From a virus, in IMG/VR virus record IMGVR_UViG_3300025640_000042, positions 1 to 30,396 of that record: a DNA stretch of 30,396 nt; one strand, written 5' to 3'. Numbering within the stretch: the first letter of the stretch is position 1; every line of letters starts with the position of its first letter. Position numbers and translations under genes: made by a program. Positions 707 to 19,006 of this stretch are shown one piece after another. The notes under the pieces are model-generated. The model did not search any database. It had not been told where the DNA came from and saw nothing but the letters and a program-made list of their open reading frames with translations.

Positions 707-2431
707 TTAAAGCGTTGTTAATGTGATACAATCGGCATCGGATAGGGCTGTTGGGAAATATAATAGTTGCTTAATCTTTAGTCCTTCTTCGTCAGTATTA
801 TATACAAGACCATCTACAAAAGTTCCAACTCCACTTGCAGCTACACTATGATAAAGAGAACCATTGCGATAAAATTTAGCATTGACTCCATCGTACATAA
901 ATAATACTTTGTGATTTGTATTTTCTGCAAGACTTGAACCATAAAAACTTTGTCCACTTCCGAGATTATAAATTGGAACGAAACCTTTATAGTAACCTAT
1001 ATGATTACCTCCTGCAGTAAGAACTCGCATATCATAAAAAGCGCTATCAGCCAAACTGAAACTACCCTCAAAGAAAAAAGTAAATGAATCATTGTTAACC
1101 GAAGAAGAAAAATCTAATGCTGAATCCGCCCCCCGCGTAACACTCCCGCCCGAATGGTTCGGGATGTAGGAAGTTGGGTAGGAAGCTTGTTCAAACTGCG
1201 CTCCATATACCAAGAAGTCAGTAGCCATATTTGCTAAAGTTGTACCACCTGCACTTGACCTTGCTTTTCCTATATTTATAAGTTCAACATTCCCCGTACT
1301 TACAATAAAAGTTCCAATTGCATCTAACCTAACCCAATCATTAGTTAGAATATGACTCTTAACCGCTCTATAAGCACCACCGATTTCATAAGTGTATATG
1401 TCTACAATCTTACCGACTTGCGAAGCATCCGTTGCTTTAAGATATACTGATAATGTAAATTTATCTCCTGCTGACTTAACAAGACCATTGTTGTTATTGA
1501 TAACCGCAAAATCATTATCCGTGCTTGGCTTGGTAACAACTACTCTTGCTGCGTTTTGCACTCCTTCAGGAGATACCGCATAGTTATCAGTTACGACAGG
1601 AACAGCAGTACCATCGCTTGTTCTTTTTATCCATTCACTTGAACCAAAATACTCACTAAAAATGATTTCATTTGTCCTACTCGGCTCCAACAAAAGACTC
1701 GGACAAGTTGCCCCGCCCGAATAATCAAAACGCGGTTCGTCCTCTAACAATCCCGCTTTGCCCGTTGTCGCTCCCGATTCTATGTAATCCGTAGCGGCGA
1801 GACCGATTTCCAATTGGGCATCTTGGATGTAGATTGAGCCGCTTGTAGGAGCAGTAGAACCGCTTGAATCTAAAGGGTAAATCCTTAAATATGTAGCATC
1901 GTTATCAGTAGACATTGAACATCTATACCATCCATTTCCTACGCTTTCAATTTTTGCTTCTACTACATCTCCACTTGTTTCAAATAAAACCCCGTTAACT
2001 AAATCAAATTTTGCATTAGGGTTAGTACCGCCATCTAAACGAAGCGTAACACCTGCGGATGCATTTGCTTTTGCATATAAACTAATTGTCTTTACACCGC
2101 TTACAGAAATAGATTGTTGTATCCGTGCAGAAGCTGCTGATTTAGTCAATAGCCACGCATCCGAACTACCATCGTAGCCGCTTTGCCCACTTGTTGGTGA
2201 TGTCCCTATGTTTGCCCAAGTCGTGTCAAACTGATTAGAGCGTAAAAGCAAATTCTCCCGCCCTTTCTCAATCAATCCATCCGCCCCGATTCGGGTTGCT
2301 GTTAAATTTGAACCTCGTGAAAATGTAAAGTCCCCCGTGCCGTCAGTGGGTTTAATGCTATACGCTTTGCCGTCCTTGCCAGCCGCTCCGCTTGGTAAAA
2401 ATGCTAAAGATGCATCGTCAAAAAAACTCAT
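707..2431 (-). CDS. Tail adhesin with tandem carbohydrate-binding-like domains
   Basis: This 574-residue protein is probably a surface-binding tail fibre or tip adhesin. The N-terminal stretch (about 1-60, with FTFSRGSNLTATRIGADGLI) is typical of flavobacterial phage tail proteins. It is followed by two related beta-sandwich units. The first begins near ENLLLRSNQFDTTW and includes ISLYAKA; the second begins near LLLEPSRTNEIIFSEYF and includes FTLSVYLKA. Both resemble CBM4/9-type jelly rolls. The C-terminal ~150 residues (from about 425) look like a LamG/concanavalin fold, with FTFFFEGSF and KFYRNGSLYHS. There is no obvious catalytic motif. Its ATG overlaps the stop of the 74-residue gene upstream by one base, implying translational coupling. 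Receptor binding is an inference from fold and position. Confidence 0.8.
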   Translation of the reverse strand: MSFFDDASLAFLPSGAAGKDGKAYSIKPTDGTGDFTFSRGSNLTATRIGADGLIEKGRENLLLRSNQFDTTWANIGTSPTSGQSGYDGSSDAWLLTKSAASARIQQSISVSGVKTISLYAKANASAGVTLRLDGGTNPNAKFDLVNGVLFETSGDVVEAKIESVGNGWYRCSMSTDNDATYLRIYPLDSSGSTAPTSGSIYIQDAQLEIGLAATDYIESGATTGKAGLLEDEPRFDYSGGATCPSLLLEPSRTNEIIFSEYFGSSEWIKRTSDGTAVPVVTDNYAVSPEGVQNAARVVVTKPSTDNDFAVINNNNGLVKSAGDKFTLSVYLKATDASQVGKIVDIYTYEIGGAYRAVKSHILTNDWVRLDAIGTFIVSTGNVELINIGKARSSAGGTTLANMATDFLVYGAQFEQASYPTSYIPNHSGGSVTRGADSALDFSSSVNNDSFTFFFEGSFSLADSAFYDMRVLTAGGNHIGYYKGFVPIYNLGSGQSFYGSSLAENTNHKVLFMYDGVNAKFYRNGSLYHSVAASGVGTFVDGLVYNTDEEGLKIKQLLYFPTALSDADCITLTTL

Positions 2432-2655
2432 TATTCAATATCGTTTTGCGGGAACCATTCAGCCCCAAGTGTTTCTTCCTCCGTTAGTTCAGCCGTGTAA
2501 CTATCGTGTTTTAAGATAGCGTAGTCGCTTCCGTTTGGATGTTCTATGATAGATGCCCAGTCGGTAGTATAAACACCATCATAGCCCTCGCCATTAACTA
2601 CTAAAGTATTGTAGGCTTCCAATTCGCTTCTTGTTGTGCTTGTGTAGTATGCCAT
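2431..2655 (-). CDS. Hypothetical small tail-region protein, 74 aa
   Basis: This small acidic protein is not recognised. It lies between two adhesin-like genes and overlaps both by one base (stop/start TAATG at each end), so it should be made in step with them. It has no membrane segment, signal peptide or cysteine. The sequence (GYDGVYTTDWASIIEHPNGSDYAILKHDSY) looks like a compact beta-rich domain. A role as a fibre chaperone or small tail-tip subunit would fit the context, but nothing in the sequence demonstrates it. Confidence 0.72.
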   Translation of the reverse strand: MAYYTSTTRSELEAYNTLVVNGEGYDGVYTTDWASIIEHPNGSDYAILKHDSYTAELTEEETLGAEWFPQNDIE

Positions 2656-3590
2656 TAGTATATAGTGTAGAAGTCGTTGATGTTCGTTTCTATGCCGCCT
2701 TGATTACTGCTTTGGTCGGTAGTGTAAAAAATCAATTCTTGCATTTGATACATTCTAAACGAACCAGCATCTTGATATGCTAATCTTGGGCCAGTTCCTT
2801 GATAATTAAATAAACTATAATCAAGATAAATTAAAGACTGGGTACTCATTGCGGTTTTAATATCACCTCGTGTTCCGCTAAATGATGAACCATTGACATA
2901 GGCCGCAGTCATATTTGCTCTTGAATTTATAGTGGTGGAAACACTTGCGGTTTGTGCCAACCAAGAATAGTCCGCACTATCAGTTGTGCCTATCAAACAA
3001 TTAAAATCAAATGTACTTTTCAATACGGAGAATATATTGTAGGATGCGGGGGATGCAAATGATAATGGTAGAAGCAAATAAGTAGACGATGGTGGTGAAA
3101 TAGTAGGCTTCCCATTCTCCAAAATAGTAGAACCGCTTGAAACGATTTGAGGTTGTGCTGATGCACTTGCATTTGCCGCATCATTCCCATTCCCGCTTTG
3201 GTCGTACCAAGTCGTAACGAACCCATCAGTACCGCTACAAAACGATTCAAGGGTTGTTGTATCTAACTCGTTGTTTACGAATCCGATTGATTGGGTAGTG
3301 TTATCACTTGCTCTACGGACTACGATTGCATCGCCCGTATATGTGTTATCTAATAAGCGTAAAGAGTAAGCCGCAGCCGCTCCCGAATAATCGTTGAGCA
3401 GTCCCGTGAATGCTACGGGTTCTGGGTTTTGTACGAGGAATTTGACGTCGGTCTTTGCGCACGATGGTGATTCCATCGTTCCGCCGTCGGCTATGACGCG
3501 AGCCTTGAAATCATTGACGTACTTCGCCCAAATTCCACCTCCGCCAAACAATCCTCTCCGTAGGAGGTAATAGAATTGAGATTGTTTCAT
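2655..3590 (-). CDS. LamG/arabinofuranosidase-B-like tail protein
   Basis: A 311-residue virion protein. After an N-terminal ~70-residue region with a Gly-rich patch (RRGLFGGGGIW) comes a concanavalin/LamG-like domain. It opens with GAAAAYSLRLLDNTYTGDAI and VVRRASDNTTQSIGF, continues with VTTWYDQSGNGNDA near residue 146, and ends with QMQELIFYTTDQSSNQ. That series recalls the beta-sandwich of alpha-L-arabinofuranosidase B and the LamG modules common in phage fibres. Glycan binding is the likely role. Hydrolysis is possible in that family, but I cannot identify catalytic residues. A 61-base gap separates it from the large tail protein upstream, and its stop overlaps the next start by one base. 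Confidence 0.78.
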   Translation of the reverse strand: MKQSQFYYLLRRGLFGGGGIWAKYVNDFKARVIADGGTMESPSCAKTDVKFLVQNPEPVAFTGLLNDYSGAAAAYSLRLLDNTYTGDAIVVRRASDNTTQSIGFVNNELDTTTLESFCSGTDGFVTTWYDQSGNGNDAANASASAQPQIVSSGSTILENGKPTISPPSSTYLLLPLSFASPASYNIFSVLKSTFDFNCLIGTTDSADYSWLAQTASVSTTINSRANMTAAYVNGSSFSGTRGDIKTAMSTQSLIYLDYSLFNYQGTGPRLAYQDAGSFRMYQMQELIFYTTDQSSNQGGIETNINDFYTIY

Positions 3591-11628: not shown

Positions 11629-12828
11629 TTAGGCTTGAGCCAAGTATTTCACTGCACGGCTATCAAGAACCTTCGCATCCTTACGAGCGTAAGAAACGAA
11701 ACCAACTTCTAATTCGTCCATGTAACGCTCGTTCAAACGTACCATTTGAACACCACCAGCAGAACGAACAACGAACTTGCTGAAGTCAGCCGCCAACAAA
11801 GTCTTTTGACCCGTTGTGATTGCTGATGCCATATCGTTGTTGTAGTATAGGTTGAATCCAAATAATTTGTCTGGCTGACCCGCTTCCATCGATGGGATGA
11901 AGATTGGGAAATCGTTGGCACTGCCCAGCCCTAAACTACGAATCACAGAAATTACAGAATCGTTGGCCATAAGCCCGAAGGTTGGCTTGTTTCTATAACT
12001 TGGGTCGATTGAGTGGATAAGGTCCAAGATATCGTCAGCGGCGATTGCCGTTGCAGATGCCGCGGTGTTCCCTAATGTTGCACCCGTGATGATACCTTGT
12101 GGTTGGCTTGAGCCAGTACCAGTAGTGAATGCCGCGTTTGTTGCGCGTGCGATTCTTTCGCCCATTGCTTCAGCAAGGAACGCGTTCAAATCGAATGCGT
12201 TGTCTTGCAACAATTGCATTGAAACGCGAACTTGTGATGCGTAGTTGTAAGCAGACAATTGCGCGTTTGCGAATGTCATATCTTGAACAGTTACGGCCGC
12301 CGCTTCAGAAGTTAAACCAGCATCAGTTGCCGTGTCGTTAATTGTTGGGTAATCCAACAATGCGCCACCCGCAGTGTTCAATTTTTTAGCTAAACGCTCA
12401 ACCTCACCGGTGAACAATGTCGCCATATCCAATTCGTTGCTGAAATCTTGAGGTACTAAGAAACCACCCAAAGAATCAGTTCCAGCGATTTGCGTGCTTG
12501 TTCCACGTAATTCAGCCATCATTGAACGCTCGTTGCTATTCAATGCACCCATTCCGTTGCGTAGGTATTTCTCGAATGCACCTTTGCGAGTTGCTTTTGG
12601 AGCCGCTTCACGAACTTCAGCATTTGCCGCCAATTCTTTCTTCATCTCGGCAGTGCGCTCGATGATGTCGATTTGTTCTTTGATGCTTCTTGCATCTGCT
12701 TCCATTGCGTCGAATTTCGACTTTTCTTCGGCGTTCAATGAACGTCCTTCTTTTTGGGCGTTTTCAACGATGTTCGTTGCGCCTTTGATTAGTTCCGCGC
12801 GTTGTCCGCGTAGTTCGATGTTTTTCAT
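11629..12828 (-). CDS. Major capsid protein, HK97 fold
   Basis: A 399-residue HK97-type major capsid protein. Residues ~1-80 are a charged coiled coil (RAELIKGATNIVENAQKEGR, then EEKSKFDAMEADARSIKEQI) that should serve as the scaffolding delta domain and be removed by the protease gene upstream. The mature part begins around the basic segment ATRKGAFEKYLRNG (about 80-95). It includes the typical TDSLGGFLVPQDF strand, DYPTINDTATDAGLTSEA, and the P-domain end with GVQMVRLNERYMDELEVGFVSYARKDAKVL. It starts 4 bases after the protease stop. The exact cleavage site cannot be placed from sequence alone. Confidence 0.96.
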   Translation of the reverse strand: MKNIELRGQRAELIKGATNIVENAQKEGRSLNAEEKSKFDAMEADARSIKEQIDIIERTAEMKKELAANAEVREAAPKATRKGAFEKYLRNGMGALNSNERSMMAELRGTSTQIAGTDSLGGFLVPQDFSNELDMATLFTGEVERLAKKLNTAGGALLDYPTINDTATDAGLTSEAAAVTVQDMTFANAQLSAYNYASQVRVSMQLLQDNAFDLNAFLAEAMGERIARATNAAFTTGTGSSQPQGIITGATLGNTAASATAIAADDILDLIHSIDPSYRNKPTFGLMANDSVISVIRSLGLGSANDFPIFIPSMEAGQPDKLFGFNLYYNNDMASAITTGQKTLLAADFSKFVVRSAGGVQMVRLNERYMDELEVGFVSYARKDAKVLDSRAVKYLAQA

Positions 12829-12832
12829 CGTG

Positions 12833-14419
12833 TTAAAAATTTAGAATTTTACTTTTATACAAATAAAGGTCGGAACCTTCTTCCTTCGTTTCCACGACTT
12901 CGGATTCGGTATTTTCTACCGATGCCGCTTTCGCTTCTTCTTTGGTTTCCGTTTCCAAATCGCGCTTCAACTCCGATGTTGCGTCCGGATAAGCCGGTTG
13001 GCTTACTGGGCTTACATCAAGCAAACGTGATACTTTTTCAATGATTCGGTAAGTTACACCATCGCGTTGTTCCCATCTATCCTTTTCAATAAGGAACGCG
13101 AATGAACTTTGATTGACGTCGCCGCGCTTCATCAATTCCGCCAAATCATTGGCATATGTTGTGTTCGGTAAATCAACCTCATAAAACAAACCGCGTTTGT
13201 CCGTGCTGATTCTTAATGTGCCACTTGACACACGTCCCAACAATAAATTTTCGTCGTGGTTAAAATAGGCACGAACGTCGTTGTCCATAACGCCATCGAA
13301 CGCACCCGTTGCAATTTGTTCGTAGAATCCACCCATCCATTCGGAATCCGAATTGTAAACGGCGGCATAACCACGAATCGTGTTTCCATTTTGTTCCGCG
13401 TTTTCCATGCGGAATTCGCGTTGTTCTTTTACGACTGAAGACTTGCGAACCTCAGCGTCGAATTTTTCTAATGTGCTAAATCTATGGACAACGTTCAACA
13501 CTGGTTTGCGCTCAACGTATGCGTCCGATTCGGAATCGTAGCGGTAAATTCTAATCAATGCCGCCGGGTCGTCTGCCGTTCCGTTGACTTTGAATCCCGA
13601 ATCCGCTTCCAATTCGCCGTCCGTTTCAACTTGAATGATTCGGCCATAAGCATTGCCGCCCGATGAGTTCCAACGCACAAAGTCACCAACCGCCAATTCG
13701 TTTGGTTCTGCTCTTTCCGTAACGAGGATACCGCGAACGCTTTCCACAACGGCCGCGTTGTTGTCGTAATGTTTGACGATGTCGAGTGATTTGATTTTCG
13801 CAATCTTTTCTTCATCGCTACCCATTGCAAAAACGCGTTCTTTTTCGATGCCGTTTGCAATGGCGAACCCTTGCAAATATTCCGCATCATTTCGCGCACT
13901 GATGATATAAATTTCCGAACCCTTTGATTTTTCTTCTTCTAAATAAGCACGGCCAATGTCATTGTTCAATGTGCCGTCAAAATCAAACGAAACGCGTTCG
14001 GCGTCTTGCTCGCTTGACATTTCCCCTTTGCCGAATGTGATGACGATTTCGTCATCGGTTTCAACAACGGATTTGATATGTCTTTCGTTGGGTTGTTCGC
14101 TTTTATCTTCTTTCATTTTTTCAATCGTTCTTTTTGCCCAATTCAACATCGGGTCGCCACCCCATGCGGCATACATAATTGAACCACAAATTTCTTTTCC
14201 GTCCTCATCAGTGAAACGACCTTGGTCGTACACTTTGGCACGTGATAAAAACGAATAGGTCCGAACCAAAACGTCGTCCGAAATCGCTTCGCCACTTGAC
14301 AATTGATTGGCTCTTTGCCAACCGACGGGTGTGCCACAATCGGTGCCGTTGTCCTCGCGGTGTTTTAACGCCTTTTTAGCGTTGTTCTTTGCCCCTTCGG
14401 GGTAATCACTCCACGGCAT
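12833..14419 (-). CDS. Multidomain HK97-type prohead protease with HAD-like domain
   Basis: This 528-residue protein (ATG at 14419) is far longer than the usual ~200-residue prohead protease. Residues ~1-105 form a module with MPWSDYPEGAKNNAKKALKH, CGTPVGWQRANQL, FLSRAKVYDQGRF and CGSIMYAAWGGDPMLNWAK. Residues ~140-225 look HAD-like: FDFDGTL (Asp146, Asp148), IISAR (Ser174) and KHYDNN (Asp219). Residues ~240-310 include VGDFVRWNSSGGNAYGRI, a small beta-barrel. Residues ~335-490 are the protease: IRGYAAVYNSDS, YFNHDENLLLGR (His388), NQSSFAF (Ser438/Ser439) and DVSPVSQPAYPDA. The protease should process the capsid delta domain. The role of the HAD-like part is unknown. A TTG 33 bases upstream is possible, but the ATG fits better and overlaps the portal end by 14 bases. 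Confidence 0.9.
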   Translation of the reverse strand: MPWSDYPEGAKNNAKKALKHREDNGTDCGTPVGWQRANQLSSGEAISDDVLVRTYSFLSRAKVYDQGRFTDEDGKEICGSIMYAAWGGDPMLNWAKRTIEKMKEDKSEQPNERHIKSVVETDDEIVITFGKGEMSSEQDAERVSFDFDGTLNNDIGRAYLEEEKSKGSEIYIISARNDAEYLQGFAIANGIEKERVFAMGSDEEKIAKIKSLDIVKHYDNNAAVVESVRGILVTERAEPNELAVGDFVRWNSSGGNAYGRIIQVETDGELEADSGFKVNGTADDPAALIRIYRYDSESDAYVERKPVLNVVHRFSTLEKFDAEVRKSSVVKEQREFRMENAEQNGNTIRGYAAVYNSDSEWMGGFYEQIATGAFDGVMDNDVRAYFNHDENLLLGRVSSGTLRISTDKRGLFYEVDLPNTTYANDLAELMKRGDVNQSSFAFLIEKDRWEQRDGVTYRIIEKVSRLLDVSPVSQPAYPDATSELKRDLETETKEEAKAASVENTESEVVETKEEGSDLYLYKSKILNF

Positions 14420-15626
14420 CGTTTGCGTCGTTTTGTGGGCTTGCCACGTCAATCATATTCATTGGTTGCAAATATGCATCGCCACCATCAATCGGTGCCA
14501 TATTTTCCAACTTGCGCACATCGTTTGCGCTAATCCATCCCCATTGACGTCCCTTTGTGTAGGCTTCGTATCTCGAACGAATATCACCACGCAACAATCC
14601 GTCCATGTTGAAACGAATGTAATATTGCGAATCACCGACAAACAACTTGCGATTGATTTCAGATTCCCATCTTTTCACCCACGGCAAAATCGTGTTGCGT
14701 TGGAACATTATTCCTTGCTCCTCGACGTTGGCACGTGTGGATGAATTTTCCATACTTCCCAAATATGCCAATGGCAAACGGAAAAAACGGGCGATATCTT
14801 CAACGCCGAATTTTCGTGTGCTGATGAACTGCGATTCTTGTGGGCTGATGGACATCTTTTCGACCTTCATCCCTTCTTCAAGGATGGCGGTCTTGTGTGC
14901 GTTATCCAATCCCGCGTTGCGTTGTTGCCACGAACGAATCAAACGCTTATATGCTTCGTCGCTTAGGCGTCCCGGATGTGTTAAGACTGCGGAAACGTTT
15001 GCGCCGTTACCAAAGAACGAACCACCGAATTGGTCGGCCGCTAATCCAAGGCCGATTGATTCACGTGCGGATTCAATGACCGACTTTCCAATGATTCCGT
15101 CGAAACCTAATCCAACAATGTGAATCATTTCCGAATCGTCGAACGTTTCTTTTTTATCGACTTGATAGAACTTTTCTTCTTTATAGACCTTGACTTGAAC
15201 GCGGTCCGGATGAATCGGAATCAATTGGATTGGATTCCCAGCGGCATCGCGTTTGATTGCGATGAACGCATTCCCGTGCAAACACAAATGTGCTTGACAC
15301 GTTTCGCGGAATGTGAAATCCGTCATCATCGCATTTGGATGATGAATCAATTTGTTGATTGGATGGCCTTCAGCATCTTGAACGATGCCGTCCGCGGTTT
15401 GCTTAACGCTCCACGGCAATGTTGCCATTGTTTCGGAAATAACACGAACGGCACCAAAGACGGCGGACAATTGCATCGCGGTGTTTTCCGTGACGGCAAT
15501 GCCCGTTTTTGATTCGTTGTCGCTGAACATCCATTCGGCGGGGTTCGCCAATGATGTTGATGGGCGGTTCGGATTGGAACGAAATGCGCCCAAAATGCGC
15601 CCGAATAAATTTTGATTTTCGGCCAT
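14406..15626 (-). CDS. Portal protein, HK97 family
   Basis: A 406-residue HK97-family portal, the dodecameric DNA channel at the unique capsid vertex. The N-terminal part has AMQLSAVFGAVRVISETMATLPW, the most recognisable portal signature, followed by HPINKLIHHPNAMMTDFTFRE and LCLHGNAFIAIKRDAAG. The central part includes GKSVIESARESIGLGLAADQFGGSFFGNGA, and the C-terminal clip/stem region has ISPQESQFISTRKFGVEDIARFFRLPLAYLG, which is highly typical. It is followed by the protease and capsid genes as in HK97. A candidate promoter with a palindrome lies just upstream (15640-15686), downstream of a strong terminator. Confidence 0.96.
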   Translation of the reverse strand: MAENQNLFGRILGAFRSNPNRPSTSLANPAEWMFSDNESKTGIAVTENTAMQLSAVFGAVRVISETMATLPWSVKQTADGIVQDAEGHPINKLIHHPNAMMTDFTFRETCQAHLCLHGNAFIAIKRDAAGNPIQLIPIHPDRVQVKVYKEEKFYQVDKKETFDDSEMIHIVGLGFDGIIGKSVIESARESIGLGLAADQFGGSFFGNGANVSAVLTHPGRLSDEAYKRLIRSWQQRNAGLDNAHKTAILEEGMKVEKMSISPQESQFISTRKFGVEDIARFFRLPLAYLGSMENSSTRANVEEQGIMFQRNTILPWVKRWESEINRKLFVGDSQYYIRFNMDGLLRGDIRSRYEAYTKGRQWGWISANDVRKLENMAPIDGGDAYLQPMNMIDVASPQNDANDAVE

Positions 15627-16406: not shown

Positions 16407-16571
16407 TCAATTATTTTTATTCGTTTCCAAATCAGTGCGGAACACATTGATGATTTCCCCATCAAGTAAGATGCGCACAATGTACCCGTCACCCGTTTCA
16501 GCAATCCACGGCGTGAACCCATTTTCAAACAACATCAATCCCAATTCGCGGGCATCTTCCATTTTCATCAT
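16407..16571 (-). CDS. Hypothetical small protein after large terminase, 54 aa
   Basis: A short gene whose ATG overlaps the large terminase stop (ATGATG with TGA), ending just before the copy A promoter. The sequence (MEDARELGLMLFENGFTPWI, then GYIVRILLDGEIINVFRTD) looks like a compact alpha/beta domain with good coding character. I do not recognise a family. Tight coupling suggests it is made with the terminase, but a packaging role is not demonstrated. The second and third Met codons lie within four residues, so the exact start is uncertain. Confidence 0.65.
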   Translation of the reverse strand: MMKMEDARELGLMLFENGFTPWIAETGDGYIVRILLDGEIINVFRTDLETNKNN

Positions 16572-18118
16572 AACATTCGAATTCCTTGCGATTCATATGT
16601 GGACGTTCCCGTCATATCTTTTCCCTCCATCGTCATCATCTCGCCCAATGCCATTATCATAGCAATGATTCCGTCAATCTTGTCACCCGCTTTTGATTTG
16701 CTGAACTTCACATTCTCGGCATCGTCTTTTTTCGTGACTACATTCGCCGCCATCCATCGCATCATTCCGTGACCGCCATGATGCAACAATCGTTTCTTCA
16801 CCAAGATTTCCGCGTTCTTAATCGGTGCGGTCATAGATATGAAACCTTGACCGAACGGGTCCATCTCAATCCCGGCATCCGTCAATTGTTGGACCAATGA
16901 ATTCGAATTCCATCTATCAAAAGCCACGGATTGAATGTCAAAGATTTCCGCGCATTCCTTTATCTTTCTTTCAATGACCGCATAGTCCGTTGAATTCCCT
17001 TCCGTCACAATCAGTTCGCCAGCACTCACGAATTTGTCGTAAGAACCACCCGTTTGATTCCGACGTCGTTCAACGGCCGCTTCACTGACAAACAAAAACG
17101 GCACAATCTTGATGCTTTCGTCATCCATCGGGAACGCCAAAACGAACGCCGTGACATCTTCAACGGCGGCCAAATCAAGTCCCGCATATGCTTTGCGTCC
17201 TTTCAATTGTTCCAAATCTACATTGCCCGCTGATTTCATCCATTCGTCATCCGTAATCCACGACGCCAATGAGTTGACCCACTGGTTCAAATGCAGTTGA
17301 CGGAATGCGATTTCCGACGACGGCAACGTCTTTGCCTCGCGCGCCATCTTTTCAAAATATTCGGGCTTGATTGAGATGCCGAAATTTGGGTTCGCCTTTT
17401 TCCAAACCTTTGGGTCGTGAATGTCATCGTCCGGGTCCGCTTCATATATAAGCGGCAAAAACGTGTCATCCTCAATCACACCTTCTTCAACTCGTTTGCC
17501 GTAAGAATACAATTCGTGGCAAATGGAATTCGTGTCGAACACTCCAGCCGTGGTGATTGCAATCATCAAAGGTTGCGAACGCGCACCCATTGACGTCGCC
17601 ATCACATCCCACAAGTCGCGATTCTTCGCCGTGTGCAATTCGTCATATATTACCGCGGACGCATTCGCCCCGTGCAACAATCCAGCATCCGCCGCGACTG
17701 CTTTCAAAAATGAGTTGGTCCCGTTCAACACGATTGAGTTTTGGAACGTCTTGCAATTCTTTGTCAAGATTGCCGAGTTGCGAACCATTTGTTTGCATAC
17801 CTCGAACACAATCTTTGCTTGGTCCCGTGATGATGCGCAACAATAGATTTCCGCACCTTGTTCTTTTTCAACGAACAAAATCGCCAACGCAATGGCCGCC
17901 GATAAATTTGACTTTCCATTCTTTCGCGGAATCTGCACATAGGATGTTCGGTATTGACGCAAACCCGTCTTGTTCATTGTGCCGAACATCTTGTGAATGA
18001 ATTCCTTTTGCCAATCTTCCAAAAGGAAAGGTTGGTTTGCCAAATCGCCTTTCACGTGCGTGCATACGCGTTCAATGAAATTGATGATTTTGTTTGATTT
18101 TGTTTCGTCGTGTGTCAT
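16568..18118 (-). CDS. Terminase large subunit
   Basis: A 516-residue terminase large subunit (Terminase_1 type), the ATP-driven packaging motor with a headful or cos nuclease. The ATPase Walker A is PRKNGKS (residues 64-70), with upstream LLEDWQKEFIHKMFG typical of the family. Walker B is AVIYDELH (about 155-162), followed by a TTAGV coupling motif. The C-terminal RNase H-like nuclease has the acidic strand AYAGLDLAAVEDVTAF, the AFDRWNS motif and a late Asp in KAGDKIDGIIAMIMAL. Its start overlaps the small subunit stop by 4 bases (ATGA), and a 54-residue gene overlaps its own stop. Confidence 0.97.
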   Translation of the reverse strand: MTHDETKSNKIINFIERVCTHVKGDLANQPFLLEDWQKEFIHKMFGTMNKTGLRQYRTSYVQIPRKNGKSNLSAAIALAILFVEKEQGAEIYCCASSRDQAKIVFEVCKQMVRNSAILTKNCKTFQNSIVLNGTNSFLKAVAADAGLLHGANASAVIYDELHTAKNRDLWDVMATSMGARSQPLMIAITTAGVFDTNSICHELYSYGKRVEEGVIEDDTFLPLIYEADPDDDIHDPKVWKKANPNFGISIKPEYFEKMAREAKTLPSSEIAFRQLHLNQWVNSLASWITDDEWMKSAGNVDLEQLKGRKAYAGLDLAAVEDVTAFVLAFPMDDESIKIVPFLFVSEAAVERRRNQTGGSYDKFVSAGELIVTEGNSTDYAVIERKIKECAEIFDIQSVAFDRWNSNSLVQQLTDAGIEMDPFGQGFISMTAPIKNAEILVKKRLLHHGGHGMMRWMAANVVTKKDDAENVKFSKSKAGDKIDGIIAMIMALGEMMTMEGKDMTGTSTYESQGIRML

Positions 18119-18564
18119 CCAATCAAGTCATCAAGTGTTTCAATCTTTTCTTGCGTCTCAATCTTTGCGCGTGATGATGCGGTCAATCCAAATTGGACCA
18201 TCATCTTTTCAACCTTTGACCACGCGGCATTCATCATTGACACTTCGGGCCGTGGTCGCCACATCAAATCGCCTTGCGCGGTTGTGGTTGCGTAGGTCGG
18301 ACCTTGTTCTTTGACAACGGCGCGCGCGACTTGGTAATCTTCCCACGCGTCCGACAACATTTGCAACGCCATCGCATCCACTTCAGCAACGACACCAAGG
18401 TCGTCCAATTTTTTCACAAGCCATTCAAACGTTTCGTTCGCGGATTGTACTGCGGGCGCGGTTGGAATGCCATCGGCTTCCAATCGATTCTTGTGTCGGC
18501 TCGCATCGTAGGTGCCCTGCGCTTTTAATATTGCCGTTGGTTTTGGCTTTCTTCCTTTTCCCAT
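18115..18564 (-). CDS. Terminase small subunit (P27 family)
   Basis: A 149-residue P27-family small terminase that recognises the packaging site and delivers DNA to the large subunit. The N-terminus MGKGRKPKPTAILKAQGTYDASRHKNR is the family's usual 'G-RG~KP-P~~lk~l~G~~~~~r' opening. The C-terminal half is helical, with AMALQMLSDAWEDYQVARAVV and a final segment LTASSRAKIETQEKIE that matches the family's 'fGltPsSRakl'. The ATG at 18564 is preferred over the codon three residues earlier. The stretch upstream (18580-18718) has nested inverted repeats that could be the packaging site. Confidence 0.93.
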   Translation of the reverse strand: MGKGRKPKPTAILKAQGTYDASRHKNRLEADGIPTAPAVQSANETFEWLVKKLDDLGVVAEVDAMALQMLSDAWEDYQVARAVVKEQGPTYATTTAQGDLMWRPRPEVSMMNAAWSKVEKMMVQFGLTASSRAKIETQEKIETLDDLIG

Positions 18565-18585
18565 TTTAATCACATTTTATCATCA

Positions 18586-18718: not shown

Positions 18719-19006
18719 TCATTCGTGCGCTTCTTTGCCCGATTTTATATTATGACATCGATGACACATCGTTTGTAAGTTGTCCCACTCCAACGAATCG
18801 CCACCCGATTTGATTGGGATGATGTGGTCAACCACTTGGCCAATGCCATCGCATTCGACACACAATGGATGTCGTTTGATGAACATATTGCGGAGCGTTC
18901 GCCACGCACTGGTTTGATAGAACTTGTTGCGTTCCTTACGTTGCTTGCTTGCTTTGTTTTGACCTTGCAACCAAGGCCGTTGCTTTCGTTTTGGTACATT
19001 CGGCAT
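18719..19006 (-). CDS. HNH endonuclease
   Basis: A 95-residue HNH nuclease of the type often found beside terminase genes. The N-terminus is very basic. The metal-binding motif is complete: CVECDGIGQVVDHIIPIKSGG gives the first Cys pair and the catalytic DH, then LEWDNLQTMCHRCHNIKSG gives the Asn and the second Cys pair. In HK97-like phages such HNH proteins work with the terminase in DNA cleavage during packaging. The position just before the small terminase supports that role. A homing endonuclease role is less likely given the short length and context. Confidence 0.92.
   Translation of the reverse strand: MPNVPKRKQRPWLQGQNKASKQRKERNKFYQTSAWRTLRNMFIKRHPLCVECDGIGQVVDHIIPIKSGGDSLEWDNLQTMCHRCHNIKSGKEAHE

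Follow-up and report, generated by a model that had tools for sequence, protein, structure and literature searches.

Why would a capsid maturation protease carry what looks like a phosphatase? The virus record that we analysed (30,396 bases; "the window" below is this whole stretch) contains, at positions 12833–14419, a single intact open reading frame that starts with the ATG at 14419 and encodes 528 amino acids. The strand was absent from the earlier note on this DNA; we established that the minus strand encodes it, and the plus strand of the interval is riddled with stop codons. The note had read the product as a prohead protease preceded by an N-terminal module, a HAD-like domain, and a small barrel, and both the protease and the four-module layout were borne out: in order, the protein comprises a helical N-terminal module that matches phrog_2859, a HAD domain (supported by a structural model), an Hva1_TUDOR barrel, and a Peptidase_S78 prohead protease (Pfam, E = 1.5e-47).

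The gene lies in a head and packaging cluster whose order along the minus strand is small terminase, large terminase, portal, protease, major capsid protein, connector genes, and tape measure. The terminase genes (large subunit at 16568–18118, small subunit at 18115–18573; 16568–18573 together) were identified by Pfam and PHROG matches. The portal gene (14406–15626; Phage_portal, E = 2e-111) has no HAD fusion here. The HK97-type major capsid protein (11629–12828; Phage_capsid, E = 9e-51), also on the minus strand like both terminase genes and the portal, is the presumed substrate of the protease. The most variable stretch among otherwise close phages is at 707–3590 (minus strand), past the tail genes; these genes perhaps encode host-recognition proteins.

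The protease domain spans residues 339–489 (12953–13405, minus strand), and in a model of the full-length protein, residues 341–475 match the fold of T4 gp21 (Z = 8.3). The earlier note had proposed His388 and Ser438/439 as catalytic residues. H388 and S439 are invariant in 31 aligned sequences, so the histidine stands and S439 is the invariant one of the two serines. With its S78 domain, its catalytic histidine and serine, and its site between the portal and the major capsid protein, this is an HK97-type prohead protease. The Hva1_TUDOR barrel (PF11160, E = 1.4e-7) covers residues 245–290 (13550–13687, minus strand).

The N-terminal module, which we call NTM (residues 1–106; 14102–14419, minus strand), matches phrog_2859 at residues 7–104 (E = 1.7e-9). 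In the full-length model it is a confident helical module, with pLDDT mostly 81–96. No PDB match to NTM was among the matches listed, the list being filled by the HAD domain, and we did not find a Pfam family for it. NTM is followed by a linker (residues 107–140; 14000–14101, minus strand) that is modelled with low confidence and whose acidic end is the cassette insertion site in an alignment of 81 relatives. The whole-protein model has a pTM of 0.31, too low to place the domains relative to each other. NTM recurs on other head proteins, including those of very different viruses: the prohead protease of Halogranum tailed virus 1, the portal of Halorubrum tailed virus 28, and a head protein of Synechococcus phage S-CBS1. 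In Roseobacter phage CRP-811, the annotated major capsid protein (L163:2971-5421) is an 816-amino-acid polyprotein in which NTM, TUDOR, the S78 protease, and the capsid protein form one chain.

The earlier note had staked its HAD assignment on a Rossmann-like fold and on the persistence of two aspartates in homologues, and we found both. An AlphaFold2 model of residues 139–236, built from an alignment of 42 HAD stretches, has a pLDDT of 95.7 and a pTM of 0.88. It has a Rossmannoid core in which a strand (model positions 4–7) is followed directly by D8-x-D10, which are D146 and D148 of the protein. The domain itself (residues 141–234; 13718–13999, minus strand) was delimited by this model, by structure and profile matches, and by its exact absence from relatives. 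Motif I (D146-x-D148; 13976–13984) follows strand 1, motif II (S174-A-R176; 13892–13900) has its S/T after strand 2, motif III (K205; 13805–13807) is in the helix before strand 4, and motif IV (H217-Y-D219-N-N; 13757–13771) has its aspartate after strand 4; all four are on the minus strand. There is no cap insert. Because one of our scans had required VSFDFDG, conservation of motif I was taken from scans with other patterns only; all counts are of distinct sequences from scans without a motif-I pattern (31–32 rows). Both aspartates of motif I are invariant in 31/31 sequences, as are the S or T and the R of motif II, while K205 and the H and D of motif IV are invariant in 32/32.

In structure comparisons, the model matched the T4 Pnkp 3'-phosphatase (5uj0; Z = 10.9, 96 residues aligned, rmsd 2.3), human phosphoserine phosphatase (Z = 10.7), AphA (Z = 9.6), and MDP-1 (Z = 8.7). 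It also matched a universal stress protein with Z = 11.4, so the fold by itself does not prove that this is a HAD. Profile searches gave AphA phosphatases (E = 8.4e-5), a PSP-like protein (E = 8e-4), and HAD-like proteins in BFVD (E values down to 7e-12), and, for the distant relative L148 only, the polynucleotide kinase family phrog_415 (E = 1.5e-4); the best matches were to nucleotidase and nucleic-acid end families. In the window's own protein, the stretch with FDFDGTL, IISAR, and KHYDNN has no Pfam, PHROG, or NCBIfam match, and the window's HAD stretch by itself had zero matches in annotated phages or species genomes. Searching the PDB with the single sequence gave de novo TIM barrels as the best matches, which we judged to be chance; a weak PSP-like match was also among the best. 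Residues 141–234 are most likely a cap-less HAD phosphohydrolase module that looks catalytically intact.

A survey of domain order in relatives, which had been suggested earlier, revealed a point that the earlier reader had missed: the HAD domain is an optional cassette. The 528-residue layout occurs in 14 further IMG/VR records (76–100% identity, some truncated), which excludes a chimeric contig. Among 80 relatives of the whole protein in IMG/VR, 15 have the HAD stretch (including L031, whose sequence ends within it), 62 are missing precisely these residues and have a short acidic linker instead, and 2 are truncated ahead of its position. In the remaining relative (L074:4811-6535), the HAD slot is occupied by an unrelated insert of greater length, part of which is DUF5824. 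The cassette's junctions are in frame and scarless. Mapped onto a tree built from the TUDOR and protease portion, its presence and absence require 9 changes, and supported branches force 6 of them; this was a quick tree, and intragenic recombination may make the count too high. The HAD-free relative L016 nonetheless has a portal that is 100% identical and a large terminase that is 99% identical to those of the window. When we sought the window's genes in two records with the HAD and four without it, no gene prominently covaried with the cassette. A small HNH-nuclease-like gene adjoins the terminase genes (18719–19006, minus strand); it does not track the cassette, as HAD-free relatives have it too. 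Another HAD-free relative, L164 (CP070686.1; 91% identical), is in a chromosome-scale MAG labelled candidate division WOR-3, which is either a clue to the host or a case of mis-binning.

For pairs within the close family, dN/dS of the HAD domain is 0.02–0.10, and the protease is similar; for a far pair (the window and L102), the HAD has a dN/dS of 0.31. Given the low dN/dS and the near-identical phages that lack it, the HAD is an optional domain that is under selection in the phages that have it. Synonymous divergence is lower in the HAD than in its flanks for two relatives, L008 and L009 (P of about 0.009 in each case), but not for L003, L005, L006, L010, or L093, so this comparison gives no more than a hint of cassette transfer.

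The HAD family is also found on other head proteins. We scanned 406 loci, some of which duplicate one record, with in-house profiles (NTM, MPIY, and SRC are working names coined in this analysis). The HAD occurs as NTM-HAD-TUDOR-S78, MPIY-HAD-NTM-S78, PORTAL-HAD, PORTAL-NTM-HAD, several combinations with XKDF, and as a stand-alone protein, so that fusions to a head or packaging protein involve S78, XkdF, and the portal. MPIY-HAD-NTM-S78 was found in about 12 of the 80 relatives of L137, where 67 proteins lack the HAD, and a fusion at the portal's C-terminus was found in 4 of the 80 relatives of L111. Stand-alone HADs are encoded just upstream of the TerS-like and TerL genes at L127, L126, L130, L132, L134, L110, L113, and L138, and upstream of the TerS gene at L116. 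Other copies are elsewhere: one in Elemovirus is near tail-fibre genes, which counts against a strict head-only rule, and the more distant copies, found on large contigs (L143, L156), are outside recognisable head clusters, as are copies in jumbo phages. On the HAD tree, the context of the domain changes 11 times or more. A single supported clade (100/94) unites the HADs carried by proteases of the window's type, so a single entry into this protease type is probable, followed by repeated gains or losses.

We propose that the HAD is an accessory cap-less phosphohydrolase that is carried as an optional cassette on proteins bound for the prohead and acts on terminal phosphates, a reading to which we give slightly better than even chances. 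Phages would insert the cassette into, or append it to, proteins that end up inside the prohead: the S78 maturation protease here, and elsewhere portal C-termini or XkdF-type proteases; others encode it separately, next to the terminase genes. During assembly, the carrier would bring the HAD into the prohead. Either inside the prohead or, once ejected, in the host cell, it would strip terminal phosphates from nucleic-acid ends or nucleotides. The occurrence of the same HAD on several unrelated head proteins, together with its absence from near-identical phages, suggests that the head carries it as an optional enzyme. The maturation protease works inside the prohead and portal C-termini face inward, and the recurrence of the HAD on three unrelated carriers suggests that the inside of the prohead is where all of these fusions are bound. 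Because the portal, protease, and terminase genes are adjacent anyway, co-location is weak evidence for a common function. It is plausible, as the earlier note held, that many copies are present there and act on nucleotides or DNA ends. Cap-less HADs fit large substrates such as nucleic-acid ends, and small nucleotides are also possible substrates. On the prevailing view, proteases of the HK97 type destroy themselves by autodigestion and exit the prohead, so a HAD fused to such a protease may be lost before the virion is mature. Portal-borne copies, unlike these, would be expected to stay in the head.

We also considered that the HAD might be a DNA-end enzyme of the packaging site: a Pnkp-like 3'-phosphatase kept close to the terminase and portal, where it would deal with nicks or blocked ends during packaging and then play no part in the next host cell. 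By structure the closest phosphatase is T4 Pnkp, although its score is practically tied with those of phosphoserine phosphatase and universal stress proteins, and the fusion to the portal and the location beside TerS and TerL fit this idea. However, the cassette is missing from near-identical phages whose terminase and portal are the same, which disfavours a core packaging role, and no HAD was found elsewhere in 22 records of HAD-free relatives (all fragments). We consider this explanation unlikely.

Less likely still is that the HAD fold is a spacer, scaffold, or binding domain of the prohead that performs no chemistry. The domain is located in the linker of an assembly protein, and NTM and TUDOR are small, non-enzymatic modules on the same chain. 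However, the invariance of seven catalytic positions across carriers and the existence of stand-alone copies speak against this. The absence of the domain from near-identical phages further weakens a purely structural internal scaffold, which the earlier note had also raised. A protein phosphatase or regulator that acts on phosphorylated capsid, terminase, or host proteins is quite improbable. Cap-less HADs do include protein phosphatases, and MDP-1 was matched (Z = 8.7), but the closest profile matches are to nucleotidases and nucleic-acid end families, and we know of no phosphorylated head substrate here. Finally, the four-module protein is known from metagenomic contigs only (we found no cultured phage that has it), but an assembly artefact or a chance resemblance can be dismissed, given the same in-frame junctions in 15 further records, the high-confidence fold, and dN/dS far below 1.

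Returning to the proposed accessory phosphohydrolase, the 3'-phosphatase domain of T4 polynucleotide kinase/phosphatase (5uj0, 1rpz) shares the HAD fold over the 96 aligned residues and has DxD at the same place and S-x-R in motif II. The window's HAD differs in having no kinase domain and is only about 20% identical, and other HADs score nearly as high. The rest of the protein resembles a standard HK97-type prohead protease in its catalytic domain and gene position, but with about 340 extra N-terminal residues that form three modules. We found no report of a HAD on a phage head protein in open-licence full text, where a single paper contains both "haloacid dehalogenase" and "prohead protease", in unrelated contexts.

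The broader possibility is a plug-in cargo system common to the tailed viruses of bacteria and archaea, in which portals, maturation proteases, and capsid polyproteins would bear small docking modules (NTM, SRC, KTSC, and TUDOR) that take exchangeable enzyme cassettes (HAD, DUF5824-type, and others), so that the head is supplied with an optional enzyme to be used at packaging or on injection. We put this forward tentatively and think it has well under an even chance of being correct. Whatever the cargo does, nearly the same phage exists with and without one 94-residue cassette, and this natural pair opens the function of head-protein enzymes to direct testing.

Two known systems are closest to what we propose. 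In one study, Nudix (NudE-like) domains are fused to MuF, to the portal, and to a capsid-processing serine peptidase, and the authors read them as packaged and injected (PMC9503650). As here, a small hydrolase of phosphate compounds is joined to the same kinds of head protein, the maturation protease included. The enzyme superfamily is different, and the passages considered do not describe presence and absence of a cassette in near-identical phages. The polyvalent proteins of phages are multi-domain late proteins in which PBECR, 2H, or InPase domains are joined to the portal or MuF, and their authors predict that they are packaged and injected (PMC5512222). Phosphatase, KTSC, and Tudor have no match in that paper's text, and among the matches listed "HAD" is solely the verb; the carrier in the window, an HK97-type S78 protease, also differs from the carriers described there. 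Only a few kinds of enzyme are known to be attached to phage head proteins, and the window's protein would extend this list by one of the phosphatase type.
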